Part shown: in pieces, positions 680-45,562 of the stretch
Layout of the letters: the number at the start of each line of letters is the position of its first letter
Position numbering within the stretch: position 1 is the first letter of the stretch
NCBI GenBank assembly: GCA_020849625.1
Contig: JADLFV010000114.1
Location: 1-45,583, forward strand
DNA: 45,583 nt
Direction of reading: 5' to 3'
DNA from: Phycisphaeraceae bacterium
GTDB taxonomy: Bacteria > Planctomycetota > Phycisphaerae > Phycisphaerales > Phycisphaeraceae
Translations under genes and position numbers: made by a program
Notes under the pieces: generated by a model
What the model saw: only the letters and a program-made list of their open reading frames with translations
The model's database searches: none
Told to the model about the DNA's origin: nothing

Positions 680-2143
680 TCAGATGCGCAGCATGTGGCG
701 CAGGGTGCGCCAGATGATCCACAGGTCCATGCGCCAGTTGAGGCTTTCGACGTATTCGATGTCGTAACGGATCCATTCCTGGAAGTCGAGACCCTGCTTG
801 CGCGAGCGCAGCACCTGCCACAGGCCGGTGATGCCGGGGCGGACGCTGAGTCGCGCTTCGCGCCAGGGCGGGCAGAACTGGTTTTCGCCGTGGGGGCTGG
901 GGCGAGGGCCGACCACGGACATCTGGCCCAGCAGCACGTTGAAGAACTGCGGCAGCTCGTCGATGTTGAGTTTGCGCATGATGCGGCCGAGGCGGGTGAG
1001 GCGCGGATCGTTGTCCATGAAGAACTGCGGGCCATCGGCCTGGTTGGCGGCTGCGAGTTTCTGCTTGAGCTTCTCGGCGTCGTTGCGCATGGTGCGGAAC
1101 TTGAGGCAGGGAAACTCGCGCCCGCCGCGAGTCTCGCGGCGATGCACGAAGAAGAACGGCGAACCATCCTCCACCCAGATCGCCAGCATGATCAGTGGAT
1201 AGAACGGCAAGGTCACCGTCAGCACCAGCAGGGCAAACACGATGTCGAATGCGCGTTTGCCGGCCAACTGCAAACGGCTCAATCGGCGGGGACGGATGCG
1301 GCGCTCGCCGGCGTGAGCGGTTTCGTGCTGCTCGTGGGTGGCGAACGGTTCGATCAGCCGCCAGTCGATCACGTCGGTTTCGGGGATCGCATCGGGGTCG
1401 TCCCAGAGAATGGTGGGGCCGACGATGCTTTCGATGTTGCTCAGGTCGCGTCCGGCGCCGATCCAGACGGGCCCGATGAAGCGGGTCTGGTCGCCCAGAA
1501 TGCTGTCGCGGTCGGACCAGACGGCATCGGCGGAGTTGACGGCGCGGGCGATGGTGGCGGCGGGTCGTCGCCAGACCTGCACGAGTTGGCGGACGAAGTG
1601 CATCACTTCGCGGTCGAAGTCGCCGTTGTAAACCGCGCCATCGACGCTGGCGGTGATGCGCTGGTTGCGATCGACGTCCTTGCGCAGGGCGCGCCAGGCG
1701 TTGGCCGGGTCGTGGGCATGATCGCGCCAGATGCCGGCCAGATGGGGGTCGGTGGTCATGGCCATGCGGGTGACGCGCGAGTCGGCACCGCCATAGACGC
1801 GCTCGAAGCGCACGAAGCGATCGTGCTCATCAGCGATCAGCTGCTCGCGGTAGCCGTGCTCGGCCGTGTTGCGCAGACGGATGAACAGCACGCGCGGGTG
1901 CAGCCAGTTGAGCGTGTCCAGCAGCGGGTGCAGTCGGAACATGGTCAGCACGTTCGGGCCCACCAGCATGAACAACTCAGCGTTGGCGTCGATGGGCTGA
2001 ACACTACCCATGCGTACGATCTGCACGCCGCGGGCGGCCCAGAAGCGGTCGTGCAGTTGCAGCGGTGTCAGGCCCCAGACGGTGCGTCCGTTGGCCTTGG
2101 CGGCGGGTGCGGCGGCGGGATGGGGCTCTGTGATGGTGGTCAC
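680..2143 (-). CDS. polyprenyl-phosphate sugar-1-phosphate transferase with atypical N-terminus
   Basis: This 487-residue protein probably starts EPS repeat-unit assembly by moving a sugar-1-phosphate from an NDP-sugar onto undecaprenyl phosphate at the inner membrane. The C-terminal ~190 residues are a classical bacterial sugar transferase domain: KRAFD before a hydrophobic segment (about 296-325), LKFRTM (347-352), the DE catalytic pair in DELPQ (395-399), GPRP (412-415), PGITGLWQ (436-443) and DIEYVE (461-466). The first ~290 residues are not the usual multi-spanning or CoA-binding-like region of WbaP/WcaJ proteins. They look soluble, with a short hexapeptide-like stretch (IGPVWIGAG, about 223-231). 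The start is GTG, since the codon at 2143-2141 is GTG; the ribosome site is weak. It is the last gene before the terminator and has its own candidate promoter at 2173-2201. Confidence 0.9.
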   Translation of the reverse strand: MTTITEPHPAAAPAAKANGRTVWGLTPLQLHDRFWAARGVQIVRMGSVQPIDANAELFMLVGPNVLTMFRLHPLLDTLNWLHPRVLFIRLRNTAEHGYREQLIADEHDRFVRFERVYGGADSRVTRMAMTTDPHLAGIWRDHAHDPANAWRALRKDVDRNQRITASVDGAVYNGDFDREVMHFVRQLVQVWRRPAATIARAVNSADAVWSDRDSILGDQTRFIGPVWIGAGRDLSNIESIVGPTILWDDPDAIPETDVIDWRLIEPFATHEQHETAHAGERRIRPRRLSRLQLAGKRAFDIVFALLVLTVTLPFYPLIMLAIWVEDGSPFFFVHRRETRGGREFPCLKFRTMRNDAEKLKQKLAAANQADGPQFFMDNDPRLTRLGRIMRKLNIDELPQFFNVLLGQMSVVGPRPSPHGENQFCPPWREARLSVRPGITGLWQVLRSRKQGLDFQEWIRYDIEYVESLNWRMDLWIIWRTLRHMLRI

Positions 2144-2265: not shown

Positions 2266-4653
2266 TCAACCGGCCTTGCCATTGCCCTTGCTGGCGGAAG
2301 CTCGCGGGCCGTAGGACGCCACGGCGGTCGCCAGGGGGCCGAAGCGGGCACTGGTGTCGGCATCGAGCGAGTCGATGATGCGCTGCTGATTGGGATGGCG
2401 GCTCTGGCTGGCGGTGACGGAACCGTAGCTGGAGCGTTCGATGTCCTCGACCAGGGCGTGGTTGAAGACGACGCCGATCAGGTGGGCCCGGATGCGTCGG
2501 AAGTGATCAATGCACTTGTCAACCAGGGCCTTTTTGTCGCCGCGCGAGATGATCAGGATGCAGCCGTCGGCCTCGGCGGCGGCCATGGAGGCCTCGATGG
2601 AGCCGAGGATCGGGCCGGAGTCGATCAGCACCACGTCGTAGGCGGCGCGGGCGGAGGTGACCAGCCGCTTGATGGCAGCGGGTGATAGGACACCCGCCTG
2701 CTGGGGCAGGGCATCGCCGATGGGCAGCACGTGCAGGTTGGACGTGCCGGTGGGGGCGATGCAGGAGGCGAAGTCCTGACCCTGGCAGACTTCGAGCAGG
2801 CCGATGTTGGATTCCTTTTGCTCAGCCAGAGCGCTGTCACGATCTTCACGGCTGATGTAACCGAGGCCCACGAGGGCGTCGCCCAGTTTCTTGCCCGAGA
2901 CATTCTGGGCCTTGAGGGCCTCATCGATAGCGTGGTCATCGACCTTGCCCTGTTTGAGCAGGATGTGTCCGAGGCGTGGATGGACATGGACGTTCATGCG
3001 TCGCGTGAGGCCGCCGCCCACCACGTCGCCGTCGATCAGCAGCGTGCGTGAACCGGCCGAGGCGAAGGACAGGCCCAGGGCCATGGCCAAGCTGGTCTTG
3101 CCTGCGCCGGCAGCGGGGCTGGTGATGGAAAAGACGTTGGCGGAATCCTCGCGTCCGATCTGCAGCAGCGTGCGGATGTGGTGCACGGCATGAGCGACCA
3201 GCACGCCCTGCTCGTTGTTCTCGAACTTCTCGGGCAACGTGGGCAGCGAACCCAGCACGCGGGGCAGGTCCAGTTCGGCATCGGTGATGTGTCGGAAGCG
3301 TCGGTCGTAGGCGCCCCAGAGCATAATCAGGCCGAGGGCCGCGGCGATGCCGCCCATGCCGCCCATGAGGGCCCGCTTGATTCGGGTCTTGAAGTTGTAG
3401 GGACGGCCGACGCTGCCGGAGCTGATGACCTCGATGTGGTCGCCGATCTCACCCATGGAGAGGTTTTCGATCTGGGCCTGGACACTGCGCAGTTCGTTGT
3501 CGGCATCACGGATGCGCTGGTTGATGTCCTTGATGGCGTTGTTGGTGCGGCCGATGTCGAAGAGATTTTTCTGGGCCGTCTCCAACTGGGTCGCCAGTTC
3601 CTGCTCTTTTTTGGTCAGTTCTTCGAGGGTTGCGTTGGCGGTCATGGAGCCGATGTTGGCGCGGTTCTGGGGCGAGATCAGACCCTTGCGCAACTGATTG
3701 CCGCGCAGGGCGATCTGGTTATCGATGGTCTCCAGGCGGCTCCTGGCGTCGCGCACCTGGAAGTGATTGTCTCCCATGCCTTTGTTGCGATAGGTGTCGA
3801 TTTCGAGCTGGATGGCGTTTCGCTGTTCCAGCAGCCTGGCCATGGGCTGATCGACATTGGCCAGTTCCTCATCCGTCATGGCCGCCACAGCCGCCGCCGC
3901 GTCGCCGCCGCCGCCCAGAGCGATGATGGCCAGACGCACATCATTCAGGGCCGACTCGATCTTCTGCCGCTCGTTGAACTTGGCGTTGTACAGCGGATCA
4001 AGATCGTCGGTGCCCCAGGTGCCGGTGAGCTGATCGCGCTGGGTGCGCAGATTCAACAGGAGCGTGGTCTTGTCGGTTTCACGATCGTGCAACTGCTTGA
4101 GCGTGGCGTCGTCGATCGATTCGTACTTATCGCTGAAGGCGTTTTTGTGAGCGCTCATCACCGCCCGCAGGCCGGCCAGGGCCACTTCGGGATCGGGATG
4201 AATGAAGCTGACCGTGACCAGGTTGGTGCCGCGTTCGTTCTCGACCACCACGCCGCTGGTGATGACCCCGGCATTGTCCGCCTCGTCGCCGGCCGCATTG
4301 CGCCAGTCCTCATCCTTGAGCACCAGGTCCAGCACCTTGGGGCTGGTGATCAGCGACATCTCGGTGCGCAGAAACTCGTTGGAGGTGAAGCCGGCGTTGG
4401 CTGCACCGCGTTCGGCCTCGGGCAGAACCTGCTTGATCTGAATCTTGCCGCTGGAGGCGTAGAGCGTCTGCTGGCTGAAAAATCCAGCGGTCGCCAGGGC
4501 GGCGCCAAGCAGCAAGGCCAGCAGCCCCAGCCAGTGCCAGCGCCCGCGCAGCAGGTTGAGCACCCGCTGGCGGCGGCGATGGGCTTCCTGGTCGGCGGCA
4601 TCGGCTGAACCACCAGCCCACAGCGGATCTTCAACTCGGTCGTTGTCAGTCAT
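2266..4653 (-). CDS. Wzc-type polysaccharide co-polymerase / BY-kinase with nested MshEN-like insert
   Basis: This inner-membrane protein controls chain length and export of EPS (Wzz plus CpsD/Wzc tyrosine kinase in one chain, 795 residues). TM1 is at about 40-60. It is followed by a Wzz-like periplasmic domain with long helical stretches (about 180-400), TM2 at about 428-447, then a P-loop kinase: Walker A SPAAGAGKTS (about 512-521), Walker A' TLLIDGD (537-543) and Walker B VVLIDSG (674-680). Between A' and B sits an extra ~55-residue segment made of two 24-residue motifs (560-583 and 589-612) separated by five residues, matching the MshEN/GspE-N pattern. The C-terminal tail has only two Tyr, so it lacks the usual Tyr cluster. 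The ATG at 4653 is preferred over the ATG at 4659 because AGG lies 6 nt before it but abuts the other. Confidence 0.9.
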   Translation of the reverse strand: MTDNDRVEDPLWAGGSADAADQEAHRRRQRVLNLLRGRWHWLGLLALLLGAALATAGFFSQQTLYASSGKIQIKQVLPEAERGAANAGFTSNEFLRTEMSLITSPKVLDLVLKDEDWRNAAGDEADNAGVITSGVVVENERGTNLVTVSFIHPDPEVALAGLRAVMSAHKNAFSDKYESIDDATLKQLHDRETDKTTLLLNLRTQRDQLTGTWGTDDLDPLYNAKFNERQKIESALNDVRLAIIALGGGGDAAAAVAAMTDEELANVDQPMARLLEQRNAIQLEIDTYRNKGMGDNHFQVRDARSRLETIDNQIALRGNQLRKGLISPQNRANIGSMTANATLEELTKKEQELATQLETAQKNLFDIGRTNNAIKDINQRIRDADNELRSVQAQIENLSMGEIGDHIEVISSGSVGRPYNFKTRIKRALMGGMGGIAAALGLIMLWGAYDRRFRHITDAELDLPRVLGSLPTLPEKFENNEQGVLVAHAVHHIRTLLQIGREDSANVFSITSPAAGAGKTSLAMALGLSFASAGSRTLLIDGDVVGGGLTRRMNVHVHPRLGHILLKQGKVDDHAIDEALKAQNVSGKKLGDALVGLGYISREDRDSALAEQKESNIGLLEVCQGQDFASCIAPTGTSNLHVLPIGDALPQQAGVLSPAAIKRLVTSARAAYDVVLIDSGPILGSIEASMAAAEADGCILIISRGDKKALVDKCIDHFRRIRAHLIGVVFNHALVEDIERSSYGSVTASQSRHPNQQRIIDSLDADTSARFGPLATAVASYGPRASASKGNGKAG
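2818..2976 (-). other. MshEN-like tandem motif nested in the kinase domain
   Basis: Motif 1 runs from RLGHILLKQG to an ending ALKAQ; motif 2 runs from KLGDALVGLG to an ending ALAEQ. Each is exactly 24 residues, with a 5-residue spacer (NVSGK). This is the spacing and consensus (RLGxxLLxxG...L..AL..Q) of the MshEN cyclic-di-GMP-binding domain known from type II secretion/pilus ATPases. Deviations are Lys for Arg at the start of motif 2 and Arg for the aliphatic residue at its position 17, so ligand binding is not certain. Confidence 0.7.
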
Positions 4654-4772
4654 ATGCATCCTGTATGCGCCCTGCGGCCGACAGGTTCGCCCGCCCGCGT
4701 TTATCGGTCCCGCAGCACGGCAGCCCCATGTCCACCATCATCGGCTGATTAGCAAGTCGAATTGCCTGTCAG

Positions 4773-4794: not shown

Positions 4795-5622
4795 TCAGGC
4801 CTCGTCGGCCAGCTTGTAATACTGTAGCGGCACCGCCGCCCAGCGCAGCAGGCGGATCAGACCCATCAGCAGGGCCAGCGTCAGCGGGATCATCAGCCAA
4901 CCGGCCATGTCGGTCACCGACTCAGCCCGCGGCGAATGCCACCAGCCCAGCATCAGCTCGTGGGTGATCATCTGCAACATCAGCATGAGAATCGCAGCCA
5001 GCGGACTGACCAGCAGAAGCAGCAGGCGCACCCAGGTCCGATAGGGCATGCCAAAGGCGAACGCATAAGCCAGCAACCCGGCACATTTGAGGGTCGGGGC
5101 AGCCTGCTGCATGGCCATCACGTATCCGGACGGCATGGGCTGCACCAGCGTGGCCGCCACGTCTCCGCTGGCAACCGCCAGGCGCAGTTCAATGCCATAG
5201 GGCAGCGGCACCAGGAACAATAGCGCCACGAAGGCGGGCAGAAACGCCTTGAAAAGCTGAAAGCCCAGCACCGAGGTGACGCAGCCCATGACCACGACCA
5301 CGGCCCCCGCGTGCCACAGCAATTCCACGCTCACGCGCTGTCCCATGATCGAGACCAGCCAGCCGCCGATCAGAAGCAACGGTCCGATCCACGTGCCGCC
5401 GGGCTGACACATCTGCATGCGTTGCCGCCGCACCCAGATCAGCCACACGATCACCAGCGGCAGCAGCCACATATGTCGCACATCGCCGCGGGCGGTTGTC
5501 GTGCGGAACAGGTCCACCCAGGCATTGAAGGTGGCCGCCACGCCAACCACGACCATGAGCAGGGCCATGACCAGGTGCCAGTCAGTCCAGCCACGGCGCA
5601 GTTGTTTGGCGCTGAAGATCAT
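4795..5622 (-). CDS. exosortase/archaeosortase-family membrane protein, active site degenerate
   Basis: This 275-residue polytopic protein has the exosortase layout. There are several TM segments, the LVPLPYGIE loop (about 137-145), a Cys in LKCAGLL (Cys180) at the position of the ACSG nucleophile, then TM segments and DMAGWLM (238-244), matching the usual HDxAGWxxF region. Family members process PEP-CTERM proteins during transit to the surface. Here the Arg expected in the ANVLRI-like helix appears to be Gln217 (MLMLQMIT), and the His expected before DxAGW is Thr237, so only Cys180 of the triad is retained. It overlaps the next gene upstream by ATGA (5619-5622). The only PEP-CTERM candidates in the window are the two SGNH proteins. 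It may be a diverged, still active subtype or a non-catalytic partner. Confidence 0.75.
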   Translation of the reverse strand: MIFSAKQLRRGWTDWHLVMALLMVVVGVAATFNAWVDLFRTTTARGDVRHMWLLPLVIVWLIWVRRQRMQMCQPGGTWIGPLLLIGGWLVSIMGQRVSVELLWHAGAVVVVMGCVTSVLGFQLFKAFLPAFVALLFLVPLPYGIELRLAVASGDVAATLVQPMPSGYVMAMQQAAPTLKCAGLLAYAFAFGMPYRTWVRLLLLLVSPLAAILMLMLQMITHELMLGWWHSPRAESVTDMAGWLMIPLTLALLMGLIRLLRWAAVPLQYYKLADEA

Positions 5623-11636: not shown

Positions 11637-12866
11637 TTAACGTCTGCGGCTGGTCAGCAGCAGCATACCGCCCAGCAGCATCATCGCCGCGGCCGGCTCG
11701 GGCGTGATCACATAGCCGGCCAGGTCGATATCCAAGGCCTGCAAGTCCGCGCCGTAGAGATTCCAGTTGTCACCGATGATTTGCAGATCGCTGAGATTGA
11801 CGAGGCCGTCGCCGTTGAAATCGCCATGGGCCCAGTCGGCGCCGTTCTGCTGCCAGTTGTCGCCGAGGATCTGCAGATCGCCGACGCTCAACTCGGTGGA
11901 GCCGGTATAAGCGGTGGCGATCTGTTGCGGCAGCAGAGGGATCAGATGTTCGCCGTAAGCCATGTTGATGGCGGTGAGCACGGCATTGGCGAACAGGCCG
12001 TGGTAGAGCGTACCGGCATGAATGGCATCGGCCCAGAAGTAGGTGCCGTCGCCCTGGCCGGAGGTCGAAGGATTGCTGGTGACGTTGACATTCGGTCCGG
12101 GGCCGTCGAGATCGGGGAAGTAAAGCGGGCTCTGCAGGGCCAGGTTGAGCAGGCCGAAGTTGTCAACGACGGGAATGCCCAGGCCGTTGGCGAAGCTGGT
12201 CAACTGGCTGTTGACGTTGCTGACGGCATCGGTGACCAGTTGGCGCTTGGCCGGATCGCTGATGCCGGTGAAGTTGAAGTTGCCGTCGATGATGTTGGAA
12301 CGGAAACCGATGGCGGCGCCCCAGTCGGGAACGTTGGCCAGGACGATGCTCTGGTTCGGATTCTGGGCGCGGATGTCGCCGATCATCTGCTGGATGTCGC
12401 CCACGACATTATTGACGGTATTGCTGGTGACGATGGCGTTGCCGTTGTAGATGTCGCGGTAGGTCTGGGGCACGTTGGGGCTGCCGGTCCAGCCGGCGAA
12501 GTTGTTGATGCCGATGCTGATGACCACGTAGTCGAGACTGGCCAGGTTGGACAGCGTCGAGGGAAGCTGGCTGCTGACCGCGTCGTCGGTGGTGGCGCCG
12601 CTGAAGGCGAAGTTGTACTGATACTGAGTGGGATTGCCGGAGGCGTTGCCGAAGCTGACACGGTCGGCGGCGGCCAGTTGCTCGACGAAGTTGCGGTGGC
12701 GGTTGCGGGAGCTTTTGATGGCATACTCGTCGCCGTAGCTGTCACCGATGACCCCCAGCGTAACCGCCTGGGCCGCTCCGGCCAGCCATATCAGCAGCCC
12801 CAGCACCGCCGTCCAGCGACAGGCTGACACCCGGGGCTTGCAGTCCCTTATAGAAACACGTTCCAT
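11637..12866 (-). CDS. secreted SGNH/GDSL hydrolase with dockerin-like segment and PEP-CTERM
   Basis: This 409-residue paralogue of the downstream SGNH gene carries GDSYGDEY, FAFSGATTDD, SIGINNFAG (block III Asn kept, following Asp now Asn) and WADAIHAG. Residues about 325-372 form a dockerin-type pair, with LSVGDLQILGDNW and the Ca-binding loop GDFNGDGLVNLSDL. The end is a textbook PEP-CTERM: TPEP, a hydrophobic helix, and SRRR. It is thus the clearest substrate candidate for the exosortase-like protein. The ATG at 12866 is chosen because it is followed by a good signal peptide; GGAG lies about 13 nt upstream. A GTG at 12908 is the alternative. The 169-nt upstream gap may hold a separate promoter, but I could not define one. 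Confidence 0.88.
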   Translation of the reverse strand: MERVSIRDCKPRVSACRWTAVLGLLIWLAGAAQAVTLGVIGDSYGDEYAIKSSRNRHRNFVEQLAAADRVSFGNASGNPTQYQYNFAFSGATTDDAVSSQLPSTLSNLASLDYVVISIGINNFAGWTGSPNVPQTYRDIYNGNAIVTSNTVNNVVGDIQQMIGDIRAQNPNQSIVLANVPDWGAAIGFRSNIIDGNFNFTGISDPAKRQLVTDAVSNVNSQLTSFANGLGIPVVDNFGLLNLALQSPLYFPDLDGPGPNVNVTSNPSTSGQGDGTYFWADAIHAGTLYHGLFANAVLTAINMAYGEHLIPLLPQQIATAYTGSTELSVGDLQILGDNWQQNGADWAHGDFNGDGLVNLSDLQIIGDNWNLYGADLQALDIDLAGYVITPEPAAAMMLLGGMLLLTSRRR

Positions 12867-13035
12867 GTCGGCCGTTCCACTCCTGTGCGAAAAGCTCTTA
12901 TCACCCACAGTTATTCAACCACCCATCTTAGCCGGGGTGAAATCGATCAGAAAATGTTTTTCTTGCATAAAGTCCGTCTGTAGCGCTGGTACAGGTCAAA
13001 CCAGTGGCAATAGTTCGGTAGCGAGTTGACCCAGC

Positions 13036-16770: not shown

Positions 16771-17799
16771 TCAAGCGTTGGTGGGTGGTGGCGTGTGCAG
16801 GGCCTGTCTGATTTTGTGGGCACTGGTCCCGGCCGAGAAATAGAACCAGGCGCCGACGAGGCTGATGAGGATGGTGATGCCGCGGATCAGCAGCATGGCG
16901 GAGAGGGCGACCTCGTACTCGATATCGTAGTGTCGGGCGGCGTAGATGAACATGCCATCAACCAGTCCGATGCCATTAATGGTGATCGGCAGCATACCGA
17001 TGACGGCGGTGGCGGCGAGCATGATGACCAGGCCGCTGAGTTGCGGCGGCTCGTCGAGGGCGGTCAGCAGCAGCCAGTAGAAGGTGATGGTGTGCGCGTG
17101 GAAGATGACGCTGACGCCCAGGCAGGACCAGGCGGTGCGTCCGGGATGTCGCTTGAAATCGTCGAACAGGGCCAGCACGTTCTGAATTTTGCGCGGCAAT
17201 TTGGGGGCCAACCGTTCGATCACCCGGGTGCGCGTCATCAACAGCAGCGCCAGCAGGCCCACGATGGCCACGGCCCCGCCCAGCGGCACCGCCTTGTTCG
17301 ACAGCGGATGTGCGCCGGGCAGCGTCAACCGCCATGTGGCGGCCATGTATCCCAATGCCAGCAGCACCAGCAGCCCGGACAGGCGCTCGATGAACACCGC
17401 GACCACGGCCCCGGCCCGCGATACGCCGTTGTCCAGCGTCTTGATGATGCGATAGCCGTCGCCTCCGATGTTGGTCGGCAGGAAGTTGTTGAAGAAGACC
17501 GCCACGTAGTACCAGCGGTGCAGATCGTTGAAGCGCTGATCGATGCCGTGGATCAGCAGCGTCTGCTTCCACTTGTACGCGCTCAACGGCACGCTCAGGA
17601 ACATCATCACCACCACCAGCAGCAGCAGCCCTAGGTTGGGATTCTCGATGGTGTGCAGCAGACGGGTGAAGTCGGTCTGCCAGAGAATGACGGCGCACAA
17701 CAGGAGCGTGACCACGGCTTTGATCGCCAGCAGCCATCGCTTCCTGTTCAGCGGCGTCCGTGTCGGGATGATCGGCGTCTTCTGTCCCGGACTGTTCAT
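16771..17799 (-). CDS. UPF0104/LPG-synthase-TM-like membrane protein
   Basis: This 342-residue polytopic inner-membrane protein of the flippase-like UPF0104 (AglD/MprF transmembrane) family has about eight TM segments. Conserved spots are FFNNFLPTNIGGDGYRI (about residues 82-98), the charged FIERLSGLL, and LPITINGIGLVDG near the end. Family members occur in glycan and lipid pathways; the activity here is unknown, with lipid-linked intermediate transport possible. The ATG at 17799 is preferred to an upstream TTG (17811). A distant paralogue lies at 20292-21302. Confidence 0.82.
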   Translation of the reverse strand: MNSPGQKTPIIPTRTPLNRKRWLLAIKAVVTLLLCAVILWQTDFTRLLHTIENPNLGLLLLVVVMMFLSVPLSAYKWKQTLLIHGIDQRFNDLHRWYYVAVFFNNFLPTNIGGDGYRIIKTLDNGVSRAGAVVAVFIERLSGLLVLLALGYMAATWRLTLPGAHPLSNKAVPLGGAVAIVGLLALLLMTRTRVIERLAPKLPRKIQNVLALFDDFKRHPGRTAWSCLGVSVIFHAHTITFYWLLLTALDEPPQLSGLVIMLAATAVIGMLPITINGIGLVDGMFIYAARHYDIEYEVALSAMLLIRGITILISLVGAWFYFSAGTSAHKIRQALHTPPPTNA

Positions 17800-17821
17800 G
17801 GATGAACTCAAGAGCAGCGGT

Positions 17822-20291: not shown

Positions 20292-21302
20292 CTATGGGGA
20301 TCGACTAATTGATTCTAAAGCCGGTGTTATCGGAGGCGACTCCTGACGCCGCGGCGGCCGACCCCCGTCGATCAGCAACTGCCACAACCACCAAGGTAGC
20401 AAAGCCGCAGTCTGCACTATTCTACCCGCAAAAGCGATGGCCACAGCTTCGGTCGGCGTCGCCCCCGCCCAGGCCAGCAGGGCCGCGAAAGCTGCATCGA
20501 ACACCCCCAGCCCGTCCATCGACACCGGCAGCCGCGCCAGCAGGATCGACAACGGTACCGCCCCCGTGAAAAACAGCAGACCCACCTCGATCCCCATGCC
20601 CCGGGCTATCAGCCAGCAGTGCAGCACCGGCGTCATCTGCTCCAGCAGGCTCAACAGGAAGAAAACGATCAGCGTACCGCGATGCCTGCCGAACGTGCGG
20701 TAGCCATCGTGAAACTTGCGCATGGTGGTCGCGATCCGGTTATCCCGCCATCGCCCCAACAGCTTTTCGTGCAGTAGGTTAAACGCTGCATCGTGGAACG
20801 AGCAGGCCAGGGCGACCATGCCAGCCAGCAGCGTCGCTCCCGCGATCGCCAGCACCGGCAGCATCCAGCCCTCGGCATGCCCCAGCATGACCAGCACCCC
20901 GACGGCCACCATGCCCATGACCAGGGCTGCCAGGAACCCGATCAGCCGTTCCATCACCACCGTGGCCGTGACGCGATGGGCGTCGAGCCCCTGTCGGCGC
21001 GTGGCGTAAATCCGCACCGCATCCGCGCCGATGGTCGAGGGCATGACCATGCCCCAGATCATGGCGGCACAATAAATCCGCACCCCGCGCCACAGCGGCA
21101 GCCGCTGGTCCAGGCTGTTCAGCAGCAGCCCCCACTTGTAGGTCATCAGCACGCGGTCGGCCGTGATCACCGCCACCGTGGCCAGGGCGTACCACGGGTC
21201 CAGCTCCGCCATTTGCGCCAGCAGCGGGCGCACGCCCCCCATCATCCAGACGAGCACGCCCAGCAACACGGCACTGATCATCAACTTGATAAAAAGTTTC
21301 AT
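20292..21302 (-). CDS. second UPF0104/LPG-synthase-TM-like membrane protein
   Basis: This 336-residue polytopic protein resembles the product of 16771-17799: an N-terminal TM helix, MIWGMVMPSTIGADAVRIYA (matching the NNFLPTNIGGD region), VVMERLIGFLAAL, and LPVSMDGLGVFDA. It probably plays a transport or lipid-modification role at the inner membrane; the activity is unknown. It is the first minus-strand gene left of the plus-strand methyltransferase, so it may open a second transcription unit. ATG at 21302; no clear Shine-Dalgarno. The C-terminal tail is Pro/Arg-rich. Confidence 0.8.
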   Translation of the reverse strand: MKLFIKLMISAVLLGVLVWMMGGVRPLLAQMAELDPWYALATVAVITADRVLMTYKWGLLLNSLDQRLPLWRGVRIYCAAMIWGMVMPSTIGADAVRIYATRRQGLDAHRVTATVVMERLIGFLAALVMGMVAVGVLVMLGHAEGWMLPVLAIAGATLLAGMVALACSFHDAAFNLLHEKLLGRWRDNRIATTMRKFHDGYRTFGRHRGTLIVFFLLSLLEQMTPVLHCWLIARGMGIEVGLLFFTGAVPLSILLARLPVSMDGLGVFDAAFAALLAWAGATPTEAVAIAFAGRIVQTAALLPWWLWQLLIDGGRPPRRQESPPITPALESISRSP

Positions 21303-33391: not shown

Positions 33392-34340
33392 CCGCCAGCT
33401 TCTGTTTCCAGAGCAGTGTCCAGACGTCCCCAGCTTCGCGCCCGGATTGCTCGTTGCCGCGTCCCATCAGGCGTAGCAGCAGCAGTCGCGTGCCCCAACT
33501 GAGCAGGTCCACCCAGCGCAGCAGCAGCGCCGCCGCCGGTCCGTAGCATTTGCGTTGCACCATGTAGCGTGCCCGCCATGAAGCCGCCGCCCGGCGTTTG
33601 GCCGCCATGCGCGTGGGATCGGAGGAGCCGCCGCCGTAGTGCAGGATGCCGACTGCCGGGTCGTAGTGGCGACGATAGCCTGCGCGTGCGAAGCGATGTG
33701 AAATCTCGATGTCTTCGCCGTAGAAGAAAAAGTCTTCATCGAGCAGGCCCAGCTCGCGCACCGCATCGCCGCGGCAGAAGAGGAAGGCTCCCCCCAGCCA
33801 TTCGACGTCGCGCTTGACGGTGCGGCGATCCCAGCCGTTGTCCTCGGTGTCCGCCCAGCCGAACAAGCCCGGCAGGCGATAGGAAAGATTGGTGGCGTTG
33901 ACGATCTGGCGCAGGGGCGAGGGAAACTTGCGGGCGGTGATCTGCACCGAGCCGTCGGGGCTGTCGAGTCGGCAACTGAGCAGGCCGATGTCGGGCGACT
34001 GCTGCATGACGTCAAGGCAGTAGGCCATGCAGTTGTCGCCGACGACAGTGTCGCTGTTGAGCAGCAGGATGTATTCGCTGTCGCGGCAGTGCTGGTAACC
34101 GAGGTTGTTGCCGCCGGCAAAGCCCTTGTTGTCGGGCGAGACGATCAGCGTCACCACGTCGGACCATTGGCGCTGACTGATGACCTGTGCCAACTGCGTA
34201 TCGGAGCCGTCACCTGAGCCGTTCTCGACCAGAATCGCGTTGGCATCGCCCACCTGGCGCAGTTGCGGGACCAGCGATTCGAGGCAAGCGGCCGTCAGGT
34301 CAGGTGTGCGGAAATTGATGATGATGACGGACAGTTTCAC
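33381..34340 (-). CDS. family 2 glycosyltransferase (rhamnosyltransferase-like)
   Basis: This 319-residue GT-A enzyme has LSVIIINFRTPDLTAACLES, ILVENGSGDGSD, NKGFAGGNNLGYQH, ILLLNSDTVV (NxD variant of DxD), WLGGAFLFCRGDAV and FFFYGEDIEISHRFARAG. This pattern fits the WsaE/rhamnosyltransferase-like branch. The GTG at 34340 is chosen because it forms a GTGA overlap with the stop of the polymerase gene and directly precedes the conserved KLSVIIINF strand; the frame upstream to 34430 has no similarity. Confidence 0.9.
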   Translation of the reverse strand: MKLSVIIINFRTPDLTAACLESLVPQLRQVGDANAILVENGSGDGSDTQLAQVISQRQWSDVVTLIVSPDNKGFAGGNNLGYQHCRDSEYILLLNSDTVVGDNCMAYCLDVMQQSPDIGLLSCRLDSPDGSVQITARKFPSPLRQIVNATNLSYRLPGLFGWADTEDNGWDRRTVKRDVEWLGGAFLFCRGDAVRELGLLDEDFFFYGEDIEISHRFARAGYRRHYDPAVGILHYGGGSSDPTRMAAKRRAAASWRARYMVQRKCYGPAAALLLRWVDLLSWGTRLLLLRLMGRGNEQSGREAGDVWTLLWKQKLADAE

Positions 34341-35734
34341 GGGCTGGTGCGGGCCTCCAGTTTCCCGGTTGCACCGGCGGCGGCAGACGGGGCAGTGGCA
34401 TGTCGGCGCTCGGCCAGCATGCTGACGCACGCGCCCAGGGCCAGCAGGAAGATCGGATTAACCATGGCGTTGACCAGGCAGTCGAGCATGTAGAGCAGGC
34501 AGACCATGGCCAGCACGATCAGCGATCCCCCGACCGACGCAGCGAAACGGGCCGGCGGACAATGACGAAAGACCAGGAACGTCGGCAGCAGCAGCATGGC
34601 GGTCAACGAAGCCAGGCCGAGGAAGCCATTCTGCCCGAAAGCGATGATCCACAGACTGTCGGTGGTGACGCGCGTGTTGCGGTCCTCGTCGGAATCCTCA
34701 GCGAGAAAGATGCGCGAGCGGTTCCATCCGCCCCATCCGAACAGCGGCTGCTGCAGGGTTCTGCCGCTGATCAGCACCTCGGCATCGAGGCGATATTTCA
34801 GTGATGAAGCGCGGTCTTCGCCGAAGACAGACTGAGCCACGCCCACCAGTTGTGCTCCGTCCCACTGCACGATCGTGCGCGCCCCCAGGTACAGCGGGAT
34901 GACCACCACCACGGCGAGGACCGGCCACGCGCCGCGCAGCAGGTGGCAGGCGAACAGCATCATGATGCCGAACAGCATCAGGGCCGTGGCGCCCGTGGAT
35001 TTGCACAGCACGGTGGTCCCCGCCATCACCAGCACGATCAGCCACATAGGCATCATCCAGAACTGGCGCAGGGTCTTGGAGAACCACAGCCAGGTTGCGA
35101 TGACCGTCGAGCTGGCCATGAACATGCCGACCATCAGCCCGTGGTTCATGAACACCATCGGCCTGAAGCCTCCGCCGCGCAGCGTCTGCACGAACACGTG
35201 CTGGTAGTAGCCGTAGAACTGCTTGTGCAGTTGCGGGCTCATGCGCACTTCCCACAGGCACAGCGGCACATACACCAGCCCGCCGATGAACAGGCCGATC
35301 GCCAGTTCGCGCACGTGCTGCGGCTTGTTGAAATAGACGCGGGCGATGAAGTAGGGCAGCCCCCAATCAATGGCGCGGGCGAGAATGCCGGTCAATCCGT
35401 CGTAGGGGCCCAGGCCGTTGGTGATCGAAGAAAAGAACGGACTGATGCACCAGCCGAGCATCGGCAGGTCCAGCCAGTGAAAGCGGAACTGCCACAGCGC
35501 TTTGTCACGGTCGGCCACCAGCATGCCCAGCAGTACCCCCATGCAGGTGGCGGACATCTTGGTGTAGGCCGGCAGGAACGGCACGTCGTAGCCGTACACC
35601 GGCAAAAACATCCAGGCGCTCAGAAACGCCGCGATCACCGCCCGCCGCGGGGGCAGCACCATGAACAGCATCAGCACGAAGGGGATCCATCCCCAAAGCG
35701 CCAGCGGTACCAGAAGATTCGGATAACCTTCCAC
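34337..35734 (-). CDS. O-antigen ligase/polymerase-like (Wzy-type) membrane protein
   Basis: This 465-residue polytopic protein has about 11-12 TM segments and a large periplasmic loop carrying ISGRTLQQPLFGWGGWNRSR, with the GWGGW motif typical of EPS polymerase/ligase proteins. It probably polymerises lipid-linked repeat units on the outer face of the inner membrane, working with the flippase (38727) and the Wzc-like co-polymerase (2266). The start is GTG at 35734, with AAGGA 5 nt upstream. It begins 1 nt after the stop of the GT4 gene and ends in a GTGA overlap. No other polymerase is present. Confidence 0.85.
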   Translation of the reverse strand: MEGYPNLLVPLALWGWIPFVLMLFMVLPPRRAVIAAFLSAWMFLPVYGYDVPFLPAYTKMSATCMGVLLGMLVADRDKALWQFRFHWLDLPMLGWCISPFFSSITNGLGPYDGLTGILARAIDWGLPYFIARVYFNKPQHVRELAIGLFIGGLVYVPLCLWEVRMSPQLHKQFYGYYQHVFVQTLRGGGFRPMVFMNHGLMVGMFMASSTVIATWLWFSKTLRQFWMMPMWLIVLVMAGTTVLCKSTGATALMLFGIMMLFACHLLRGAWPVLAVVVVIPLYLGARTIVQWDGAQLVGVAQSVFGEDRASSLKYRLDAEVLISGRTLQQPLFGWGGWNRSRIFLAEDSDEDRNTRVTTDSLWIIAFGQNGFLGLASLTAMLLLPTFLVFRHCPPARFAASVGGSLIVLAMVCLLYMLDCLVNAMVNPIFLLALGACVSMLAERRHATAPSAAAGATGKLEARTSP

Positions 35735-37786: not shown

Positions 37787-38757
37787 GCTTTGGCGGTGAC
37801 GGATTTGGCGGCCGGTCGCTTCAGCAGTGCGACCACTAACAGTTTCCAGGCGGCTGCGGACCAGGGTTGGATGCCGATGGCTTTCAGGCCGTAGATCATG
37901 GCGGTGGATTTGTGCCCGCTGTTGAAGGCCCACCAGCCGTACTGGCACGCGAAGCGCAGGCGTGAGGCGGCATCGGCGCCGGGTCGCCAGTCCTGATGCG
38001 CTTCGAAGCGTGAGGCGATGCCGCGGCGGGTGCTGGCTTTTTCCACCGCCATGCGGCAGAGGTCCTGCTCCTGCTGGCGACGTGTTTCCGACACCCCGCC
38101 GCCGTGCAGGCGATACTTTCCGATTGCTCGCGGCAGGTTGGCCACGCGCCCGATCTCTGACAAACGCAGGAACAGTTCGATGTCCTCCGCCAGCGGGAAG
38201 TTTTCGTCGTAGCCGCCCGCCTGTTGCATTGCGTCGCGGCGCATCATGCTCATGGTGTGCCAGATCGAGCAGTGGCCGCGCAGCATTTCATCTTCGATCT
38301 GTTCATGCTCGGTGGAGACCTTGAGCGTGGTCAGCACACGGCTCCTGGCGTCCATCATCTGCACGTAACCGCTGACGCAGACGACCCGCGGGTTGGCTTC
38401 GAGAAACTCAACCTCGCAGGCCAGACGATCGGGGTGCGACAGGTCGTCGCTGTCCTGCCGTGCGACGTACTTGCCACGTGCCAGCGACAGGCCGTGGTTG
38501 GCGCTGGCAGGAATGCCGCGCGGCTCCTGGTGCACGATGCGCACACGTTCGTCCGCCTTGGCAAGCTGATCCAGTATGCCGGGAGTGTCATCAGTGGAAC
38601 CGTCGTCGATCACGATCAGTTCAAAATCACGGAAGGTCTGCGCCAGCAGGCTGCGCACAGCCGATTCGACGTAGCGCTGCCCGTTGCGCACGCACATGAT
38701 GATTGAAACCAGCGGATCGCGCTCGCTCAGAAGAGCACCTTTTCGATGATGATCCAT
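37783..38757 (-). CDS. family 2 glycosyltransferase
   Basis: This 324-residue GT-A enzyme has VSIIMCVRNGQRYVESAVRS, LIVIDDGSTDDTPG, GIPASANHGLSLARG, ARQDSDDLSHPDR (DxD) and LAEDIELFLRLSEIG. The C-terminal tail (YGLKAIGIQPWSAAAWKLL) matches that of the adjacent GT2. The start is uncertain. The ATG at 38757 overlaps the flippase gene by 31 nt and lacks a ribosome site. A CTG at 38730 would give a CTGA overlap like the 4-nt overlaps elsewhere in the operon, with AAGG 7 nt upstream. Confidence 0.87.
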   Translation of the reverse strand: MDHHRKGALLSERDPLVSIIMCVRNGQRYVESAVRSLLAQTFRDFELIVIDDGSTDDTPGILDQLAKADERVRIVHQEPRGIPASANHGLSLARGKYVARQDSDDLSHPDRLACEVEFLEANPRVVCVSGYVQMMDARSRVLTTLKVSTEHEQIEDEMLRGHCSIWHTMSMMRRDAMQQAGGYDENFPLAEDIELFLRLSEIGRVANLPRAIGKYRLHGGGVSETRRQQEQDLCRMAVEKASTRRGIASRFEAHQDWRPGADAASRLRFACQYGWWAFNSGHKSTAMIYGLKAIGIQPWSAAAWKLLVVALLKRPAAKSVTAKA

Positions 38758-40109
38758 GCGCCGGGCAGGATGCCGAAACCGAAGAGAATCGGCAGGTCAA
38801 CCTTGGGCTGCCACAGTCCACAGGTGATGGCCAGCCGGGCGTACACGGGATAGAGCAGCCATTGCGTGGCGGTCAGCCCGAACATGAAGCCGAAGGCATC
38901 CATGTAGTACCAGCCGAGCGTGCAGCAGGTGACGAGGATGACCAGTTGCGCCGCTACGCCGACCATGATGCGCCAGGTGGAACCGATGGCGAAGAAAGCG
39001 TTGCCGTAGGTGGAGTTGACCATGCCCGCCAGCGAGCCGGTCACCATGCAGGTGAGCATCCAGGCAGCGTTGGCGTACTGGCTGGGATACACCAGCAGCA
39101 CGAACGGCGGCCCGAAGAAGATCATCAGGACCAGCAGCAGGTTGATGGGCAGAATCAACATCAGCCGCACGCGCTGCAGGTGATGCAGGAATCGCTCCCG
39201 GTCGCGGCGATAGATTTCCGCCAACGCGGGAAAGCCCACCATGTTGCCAAGTTGCTTGACCAGCATGGGCCCCAGTTCCGCCAGGTTGAAGGCGATCCAG
39301 TACACGCCCAGCAGCGTGGTGCCCAGCATCAACTGCAACATGGGCAGTTGAACCTGGCCGGCCCAGAAGGTGATGAACGTGCTGAAGAAGATCCACACGC
39401 CGAAGCGCAGAATCTCGCGCAGCGCTGCGCGATCGATCTGCAAACGATTGCGTTCGCCGGGGATGAAGATGTGGCTGCCGGCCATGGTGACGATGTTGGC
39501 GACCAGGCCGTTGACCACCAGGGCCCAGACGGTGGGGCTGATGAAGTAGGCGAAGCCGACCATGGCGGTCATGCCCACGATCTGGGCGGTGGAGCGCAGC
39601 AGGGTGACCCGGCCGATCATCAGCTTGCGGTTGAGCGAGAACAGCCGCGTGGAGTTGAAGCCCATGATGACCGCGTTGAGGCCGACCACGGGCAACACGA
39701 TGCTGAGTACCGCTTCATCAAAGAACAGAGACAGCGGATAGGCCAGTGAGCAGGCGATCAACCACAGACATAACCCGCGCATCACCTGAACGGACCAGGC
39801 GGTGTTGAGGAACACCGGCTCGTCGCCGCGCTTGGACTGAATGATGTTGGGCCCGATGCCCAGATCGCTGAACATCTGCAGCATGGTCATGACCATGTTG
39901 ACCAGGGCCATGATGCCGAAGACTTCTGGCCCGGTCAGCAGGTAGGCCAGGATCAGGTTGCTGAAGAAGCGGAAGACGTTCTGGAATACGAACCCGCCGA
40001 AGACCCAGCCCGAAGAGCGCACCGCGCGCTGAGTCAGCGAAGCCGTCGGCTGCTCGACGATCGCCTCTTCAACTTCTTCCACATTCAGAGGTGCGTTAAT
40101 ACTTGTCAT
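38727..40109 (-). CDS. Wzx-type polysaccharide flippase (MOP superfamily)
   Basis: This 460-residue polytopic protein has about 12-14 TM segments, with an amphipathic N-terminal ~30 residues and then LTQRAVRSSGWVFGGFVFQNVFR in two pieces (LTQRAVRSSGWVF and FQNVFRFFSNLILA), FGIMALVNMVMTMLQMFSDLG, and a Pro/Gln-containing IGPNIIQSKRGDEP loop typical of the polysaccharide-transport (PST) group. It should flip the undecaprenyl-linked repeat unit to the periplasmic side for the polymerase at 34337. The ATG at 40109 forms an ATGA overlap with the GT4 gene. Confidence 0.92.
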   Translation of the reverse strand: MTSINAPLNVEEVEEAIVEQPTASLTQRAVRSSGWVFGGFVFQNVFRFFSNLILAYLLTGPEVFGIMALVNMVMTMLQMFSDLGIGPNIIQSKRGDEPVFLNTAWSVQVMRGLCLWLIACSLAYPLSLFFDEAVLSIVLPVVGLNAVIMGFNSTRLFSLNRKLMIGRVTLLRSTAQIVGMTAMVGFAYFISPTVWALVVNGLVANIVTMAGSHIFIPGERNRLQIDRAALREILRFGVWIFFSTFITFWAGQVQLPMLQLMLGTTLLGVYWIAFNLAELGPMLVKQLGNMVGFPALAEIYRRDRERFLHHLQRVRLMLILPINLLLVLMIFFGPPFVLLVYPSQYANAAWMLTCMVTGSLAGMVNSTYGNAFFAIGSTWRIMVGVAAQLVILVTCCTLGWYYMDAFGFMFGLTATQWLLYPVYARLAITCGLWQPKVDLPILFGFGILPGAWIIIEKVLF

Positions 40110-44904: not shown

Positions 44905-45462
44905 TTAAACACACATTGCCCGTTCGACAGGCTCCAGTAGAGTCCCGTCGATTTCAAGCGAGGTCGCCTGGCCCAGTGCCTCAATCTGAAGCACCAGCCG
45001 GCTGTGACGCCGCTTGCGTTCAATGATGCCCTGGACGCCTTTTAAGGGCCCGGACCGAACCTCCACCCACATGCCTTCACGCAGATAGGGATGGGGATCG
45101 AGTTCCTGCCCGCTGTCCAGCACCATCCGGAGGTTGTGCAATTCATCCACCAGACGGTCCTGATCATGCACCGCAATGATCTGCGCCAGTCGGCCGGAGC
45201 GTTCGACCGCCCAGGCCTGCTCCACCGAGCCGCGCAGAAAGACGTAACCGGCAAACAACGGCAAGACCACCTGCACCTTGCGCCGGCCGTAGTAACGCAC
45301 CGTATTCACTAAAGGCAGGTAATGAAATATGTTAAGTGCTTCCAGATCGCGCGCCACCGCCTTTTCCTGACGCGGCCGCGTATGCAGCACCCACCAGTCG
45401 CCTCCCGGCGCATCCATAGCCGACAGACCCAGCCCAGCCAGGCTGCCACAGCCATCTCCCAT
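44905..45462 (-). CDS. NusG-family specialised transcription elongation factor (RfaH/LoaP/UpxY-like)
   Basis: This 185-residue protein likely binds RNA polymerase and suppresses pausing or termination so that the very long EPS operon is read through. The NGN domain begins with WWVLHTRPRQEKAVARDLEAL and continues with YLPLV and LPLFAGYVFLRGS. A KOW motif follows in REGMWVEVRSGPLKGVQGIIE. It is a single gene at the head of the locus rather than next to secE/rplK, which marks it as a paralogue of housekeeping NusG. The ATG at 45462 has GAGG 7 nt upstream. ATGs at 45486 and 45417 are possible; the last would start just before the NGN domain. Confidence 0.88.
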   Translation of the reverse strand: MGDGCGSLAGLGLSAMDAPGGDWWVLHTRPRQEKAVARDLEALNIFHYLPLVNTVRYYGRRKVQVVLPLFAGYVFLRGSVEQAWAVERSGRLAQIIAVHDQDRLVDELHNLRMVLDSGQELDPHPYLREGMWVEVRSGPLKGVQGIIERKRRHSRLVLQIEALGQATSLEIDGTLLEPVERAMCV

Positions 45463-45562
45463 GAACCTGCCTCGTTCCAAGTGCATGACTCGTCAGGCTC
45501 ATCATCGACCCGGAGTCACCGGCCCATGATGTCGATCGCTTCAACTGAACGCGAAAAGTTCT

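Follow-up and report, generated by a model that had tools for sequence, protein, structure and literature searches.

A putative c-di-GMP switch nested in the ATPase domain of a Wzc-like polysaccharide co-polymerase from a Phycisphaerae-type planctomycete

The EPS locus and the co-polymerase

The window (the whole stretch of 45,583 nucleotides analyzed here) carries the gene of a polysaccharide co-polymerase, hereafter the query, between an initiating phosphoglycosyltransferase and an exosortase, with candidate Wzx- and Wzy-type genes further along the same strand. The features of the locus and of the co-polymerase were as follows.

680..2143, minus strand: initiating phosphoglycosyltransferase (Bac_transf), a conserved neighbour (Pfam, NCBIfam, neighbourhood)
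2266..4659, minus strand: polysaccharide co-polymerase of 797 aa, N-terminal Wzz-like domain, periplasmic coiled-coil, C-terminal BY-kinase-like P-loop ATPase (family models and AF2)
2317..2349, minus strand: C-terminal segment ARFGPLATAVA, predicted helix, which replaces the tyrosine cluster (sequence and AF2)
2602..2634, minus strand: Walker B, VVLIDSGPILG (alignment)
3016..3042, minus strand: Walker A', LLIDGDVVG, both Asp present, DxDxR without its Arg (alignment)
3091..3120, minus strand: Walker A, SPAAGAGKTS (alignment; G and K invariant across 46 relatives)
4795..5622, minus strand: exosortase, a conserved neighbour (Pfam, neighbourhood)
34337..35734, minus strand: Wzy/O-antigen-ligase-like protein (E 1.5e-5, below the Pfam cut-off)
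38727..40109, minus strand: Wzx-type flippase (Polysacc_synt_3; family match)

The order WecG-type glycosyltransferase, hexapeptide protein, exosortase, co-polymerase gene, and phosphoglycosyltransferase recurred in most of the loci that were long enough. It was the same with and without the insert described below, and the co-polymerase gene is orthologous in place. Outer-membrane polysaccharide-export proteins are encoded elsewhere in the same genome, which also gave nine GGDEF and seven PilZ matches over cut-off, so that c-di-GMP enzymes and further c-di-GMP receptors are present.

Several further observations were made along the locus. In five loci that form part of the query's clade (L046, L047, L050, L051, and L056), no exosortase was detected between the hexapeptide protein and the co-polymerase gene; most of the other loci have an exosortase there and ~750 bp more. 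The GDSL hydrolase at 11637-12908 of the window has a PEP-CTERM-like C-terminus as well as a weak dockerin-like segment and is a likely exosortase client. In the same cluster, an aminotransferase and a glycosyltransferase lie between two LPG-synthase-TM (flippase-like) proteins (16771-17811 and 20292-21302). A NusG-like protein (44905-45486) heads this long one-strand EPS cluster, as in the RfaH/LoaP-type antitermination of long operons.

Pfam returned a weak Wzz match for the 797-aa protein and assigned its C-terminal P-loop domain to the AAA_31/ParA type. In NCBIfam, the TIGR01007, EpsG, TIGR03018, and Wzc models all matched in separate stretches that flank the insert. A single-sequence phmmer search of the cytosolic domain against PDB sequences likewise found the BY-kinases BceF, CapAB, and Wzc on both flanks. 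The AF2 model of residues 452-797 (46 sequences) reached pLDDT 90, and its cytosolic domain superposed on CapAB/Wzc at Z 26-28, within an overall range of Z 24-28 against CapAB, Wzc, Etk, and BceF. By alignment, phmmer, and AF2, the host domain of the query has the BY-kinase fold and all three of Walker A, A', and B. The protein is most likely a co-polymerase of the Wzc-like kind, made up of a Wzz domain and an ATPase with the BY-kinase fold, from a Phycisphaerae-type planctomycete.

Sequence and fold of the nested insert

A sequence-only reading of this DNA had proposed two 24-residue motifs joined by a 5-residue spacer at 2818-2976, forming an MshEN-type domain within a Wzc-type catalytic domain, after Walker A' and before Walker B. 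The motifs and spacer were recovered at exactly these coordinates, the host domain folds like CapB/Wzc around them, and the domain identity is borne out by profile, PDB, and fold comparisons. The insert comprises the following features.

2818..2976, minus strand: MshEN domain (c-di-GMP-binding type) of 53 residues, nested, residues 562-614 (NF053729 E 3e-15, model positions 1-53; superposition on 5htl_B)
2905..2976, minus strand: motif 1, RLGHILLKQGKVDDHAIDEALKAQ; every ligand position kept, core position I19K (sequence, MshE numbering)
2890..2904, minus strand: spacer NVSGK, 5 residues (sequence)
2818..2889, minus strand: motif 2, KLGDALVGLGYISREDRDSALAEQ; R38K and L54R, L54 being the guanine-stacking position (sequence, MshE numbering)

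The deviations noted earlier, a Lys for Arg and an Arg at one aliphatic position, correspond to R38K and L54R, to which I19K has to be added. Neither the query nor any of the 44 distinct 53-residue inserts deviated from the 24+5+24 spacing.

When the 797-aa protein was compared with NF053729 (c-di-GMP_motif, MshE-related), the full model (1-53) matched at 55.7 bits (E 3e-15) against a cut-off of 38 bits, and the 53-mer alone matched at E 1e-16; this match is far above chance. In the phmmer search against PDB, residues 109-165 of the cytosolic domain matched MshE (5htl, E 1.7e-6) and PilF (6f8l, E 8e-10), and a profile built from 21 inserts found MshE at 2e-14 and PilF at 9e-27. The Pfam MshEN model PF05157 did not report the query even at E<=1 and matched 0 of 46 homologs at E<=0.01. 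The MshEN identity is therefore based on NCBIfam, the PDB profiles, and the structural comparison.

Within the AF2 model, the insert formed four helices at pLDDT ~97, and modelled alone it reached pLDDT 92. Its predicted structure is the MshEN_N four-helix fold, superposing on c-di-GMP-bound MshE (5htl_B) at 0.7 A across all 53 residues with Z 10.5 and 40% identity, and on the GSPII-B domain of PilF at ~0.9-1.1 A (together Z 9-10.5 and 0.7-1.1 A). The C-terminal domain of fumarase C has the same fold but was clearly further away, at Z ~7 and 1.9-2.0 A.

Conservation, ligand positions and decay of the insert

A scan of genome contigs yielded 80 relatives, nearly all from Phycisphaerae-type planctomycetes and two from Hydrogenedentota. 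The distance from Walker A' to the GLLxV segment in the common alignment was 30-31 residues in 41 relatives and the canonical outgroup L027, and 88-89 residues in 36 rows, the query among them. It was 85 residues in the two Hydrogenedentota, 34-35 in eight rows, and 78-147 in eight rows with different inserts. Insert-less relatives were ~57 residues shorter at the insertion site. The nested arrangement recurs in other planctomycete genomes: within the query's order, 38 of the 201 genomes gave an unbroken match to the insert-bearing model, as counted from the search listing, at E ~1e-98 or better and all in two families. All 38 share the same insertion site and the exact 24+5+24 spacing. Matches from the other families of the order broke near model positions 109-168, the expected place of the insert. 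Phylum-wide, 10 of 392 genomes scored 1e-60 or better, and all belonged to the same two insert-bearing families.

In other planctomycete families, unrelated inserts of 80-120 residues occupy the same site of Wzc-like ATPases (L016, L017, L018, L020, L022, and L084). L034, a second copy in genome G198, is a paralog with a degenerate Walker A and a longer insert at this site, the first half of which resembles a degenerate MshEN/GSPII module; it matched neither Pfam nor NCBIfam models. No meaningful Pfam match was obtained for the inserts of L016, L017, L022, and L034. With several unrelated inserts between Walker A' and Walker B, this loop is an insertion hot spot.

Both G11 and G40, which contact the guanines through their backbone amides, were present in 30 of the 44 distinct inserts; in the other 14, the glycines and much else were lost. 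The 30 glycine-keeping inserts were all hydrophobic at L10, L25, L29, L39, and L58, and all had Q61; L54 was also hydrophobic in each of them except the query. At Gln32 of motif 1, nearly all relatives have Ala or Ser instead, a point against ligand binding in the family; the query is the sole insert among the 44 with Q32. Counting Lys at the motif start as acceptable on the strength of the PilF data, the query has an acceptable residue at 11 of 12 positions (R9, L10, G11, L25, L29, Q32, R38, L39, G40, L54, L58, and Q61), the exception being Arg at L54.

Published mutant data bear on these substitutions. According to the MshE study (PMC5013675), changes of R9, D12, or Q32 cost at most ~fivefold in affinity, single changes of conserved hydrophobic residues cost more than tenfold, and changes of G11 abolish binding. 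The same study reports that L54 stacks on guanine 2 and that XpsE, which does not bind, carries L54H and I19R along with other changes. It also gives 0.35 uM for c-di-GMP binding by isolated MshEN_N (residues 1-62), so the C-terminal subdomain is not needed. PilF tolerates either Lys or Leu where the motif starts and still binds at nM level (PMC11731258).

Most intact pairs had an insert dN/dS of ~0.06-0.29, comparable to the flank and indicative of purifying selection, versus 0.3-0.97 and relaxed selection in degenerate pairs, a comparison based on small numbers, with dS partly saturated and the L055 rows out of register downstream. Since the intact pair L053/L045 has a value of 0.60, this contrast is a trend and not a clean split. 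In a tree computed from the ATPase core after removal of the insert, by a quick method and with long branches, the query fell in a well-supported 15-member clade together with eight members whose inserts are degenerate (key glycines lost) and its six nearest relatives, which have lost the insert. Given the ligand positions kept, the selection pattern, the published mutants, and the decay within this clade, c-di-GMP binding appears likely for the insert-bearing family and plausible for the query's own domain, where L54R may have weakened it.

A proposed c-di-GMP switch and its alternatives

The earlier reading had regarded the host as a tyrosine kinase, a view that the family does not uphold. 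The 62-residue tail of the query has two Tyr, never both within 15 residues, and tails of the insert-bearing family have at most three Tyr per any 15 residues (one in the query) versus five in the canonical relative L027. An FGPLAxAVA-like segment, predicted as a helix, recurs in these tails. Of the 38 rows whose insert is of MshEN size, 37 have lost the Walker A' Arg of the DxDxR motif (DGDVV in the query) and only L072 keeps it, and EX2RX2R is replaced by HxxHxxR in the family (HAVHHIR in the query). The kinase models TIGR01007, Wzc, and EpsG do match the query, yet all NCBIfam tyrosine-kinase matches were below cut-off. For the EpsG model TIGR03029, the score was 74 bits in three separate stretches against a cut-off of 313.8, with the motif nested and not N-terminal. 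Judged by these residues, the insert-bearing host protein is probably not a tyrosine kinase; with the hallmarks missing, autophosphorylation is unlikely and ATP-dependent assembly is the plausible output. The insertion did not bring about the loss of these hallmarks, since relatives without the insert are missing them as well.

We favor, with some confidence, the interpretation that the insert acts as a c-di-GMP switch for a Wzc-like ATPase in a Wzx/Wzy-type, exosortase-linked EPS locus, with both binding and gating inferred from sequence and models. A complete MshEN domain occupies the loop that runs from Walker A' to the GLLxV segment, and binding of c-di-GMP would order it there. The bound insert could then shift the Walker A' loop near the nucleotide site, or a subunit contact under the insert. 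Such a shift would alter the ATP-dependent ring assembly of the co-polymerase, and EPS chain length or export would thereby be coupled directly to c-di-GMP. As the family is without tyrosine-kinase hallmarks, control would come from c-di-GMP and not from autophosphorylation on Tyr. The switch might activate or inhibit; activation at high c-di-GMP would fit the general rule that c-di-GMP promotes EPS. In the MshE study, the ATPase activity of MshE in vitro was hardly altered by c-di-GMP (PMC5013675), so gating of an ATPase is not a given. More tentatively, and with less conviction than for the switch itself, c-di-GMP might have replaced tyrosine phosphorylation as the switch for co-polymerase ring cycling in this planctomycete lineage, directly controlling Wzx/Wzy-type EPS assembly.

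Another possible, though doubtful, explanation is that the insert, a GSPII fold, serves in structure or protein docking and in the query has lost c-di-GMP binding, as the decaying relic of a binding ancestor. L54R and I19K in the query would fit such decay, as would the sister clades that have lost the glycines or the whole insert, and the degenerate inserts, which still have 53 residues while under relaxed selection. A vanishing relic, however, would not be expected to retain 11 of 12 ligand positions, with both Gly and both Gln including the Q32 found in no other insert, or an NF053729 score well above cut-off. The view that the protein is a genuine BY tyrosine kinase, with c-di-GMP gating autophosphorylation of a tyrosine cluster, draws on the intact Walker A, Walker A' Asp, and Walker B and on the model matches, but we consider it improbable in light of the sparse tail tyrosines, the lost DxDxR Arg, the HxxHxxR replacement, and the sub-threshold scores. 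Chance or convergence on a helical hairpin pair, suggested by the fumarase C fold and by a fumarase Pfam model that weakly matches eight members, is very improbable given the curated NF053729 match, the closer superpositions on MshE and PilF, and ligand residues conserved as a set.

Direct post-translational control by c-di-GMP is well described for synthase-dependent EPS systems, whereas the post-translational control of Wzx/Wzy pathways has been called incompletely understood (PMC12802240). Direct c-di-GMP control of Wzx/Wzy-type pathways appears to be little described, and a c-di-GMP domain inside the co-polymerase ATPase would, if the proposed switch is real, be a direct link from signal to assembly. 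As far as sequence and models indicate, the c-di-GMP biofilm signal may act directly on the machine that assembles slime polysaccharide. The planctomycete family offers a natural series for probing the function of the domain, in which the insert is intact, degenerate, deleted, or never inserted.

No description of a BY-kinase with MshEN or c-di-GMP as a regulated system was found in the open-access literature. The sequence-only reading had known of no BY-kinase with such a domain in its catalytic core; the nested position does prove new, but the pairing itself has a precedent in EpsG (TIGR03029), as in Mitsuaria sp. 7 WP_067283969. Like the query, EpsG belongs to an exosortase-linked EPS locus and unites an MshEN-like 53-residue motif with a BY-kinase domain in a single polypeptide; the Mitsuaria gene adjoins exosortase B and EpsF. 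The N-terminal motif was seen in an EpsG-type probe sequence and confirmed in the Mitsuaria plasmid protein, where it scored 37.8 bits with NF053729, just under the cut-off of 38. The insert alone matched TIGR03029 at model positions 5-56. In a plasmid search with the query, the listed matches were ordinary CpsD/Wzc-type kinases only. The Mitsuaria EpsG (L153:3950-4825) ends directly after the catalytic domain and has no tyrosine cluster.

EpsG has its motif ahead of the kinase and leaves the Wzz part to another protein, EpsF, whereas the query has the motif between Walker A' and Walker B and Wzz fused to a kinase-like domain whose Walker A' is without Arg. The novelty lies in this nesting within a protein that has no kinase hallmarks; the pairing of a c-di-GMP motif with a BY-kinase is known but little noticed. 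EpsG may represent another co-polymerase ATPase that is linked to c-di-GMP and free of phosphorylation. Judging by this family, a link between c-di-GMP and the co-polymerase would have arisen on at least two occasions in EPS loci with an exosortase. Wang 2016 (PMC5013675) names EPS biosynthesis in Methylobacillus among the processes of MshEN proteins; the protein meant there is presumably EpsG.

Wzc, CapAB, and BceF share with the query the catalytic fold, the Walker A/A'/B order, and the Wzz fusion, but the query is without their tyrosine cluster, EX2RX2R, and Walker A' Arg and has an additional 57-residue insert. The MshEN (GSPII) domain of MshE, PilB, and PilF is the same 53-residue, 24+5+24 domain. 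In those proteins it stands at the N-terminus of hexameric T4P/T2SS ATPases, with MshEN_C after it, unlike the query insert, which has no MshEN_C and lies inside the P-loop domain of another family. NfrB, the c-di-GMP-activated glycosyltransferase of E. coli, also has an MshEN motif in an EPS machine, within a glycosyltransferase/synthase in its case and within a Wzx/Wzy co-polymerase in the query; the NCBIfam NfrB model NF008411 matched the insert weakly.
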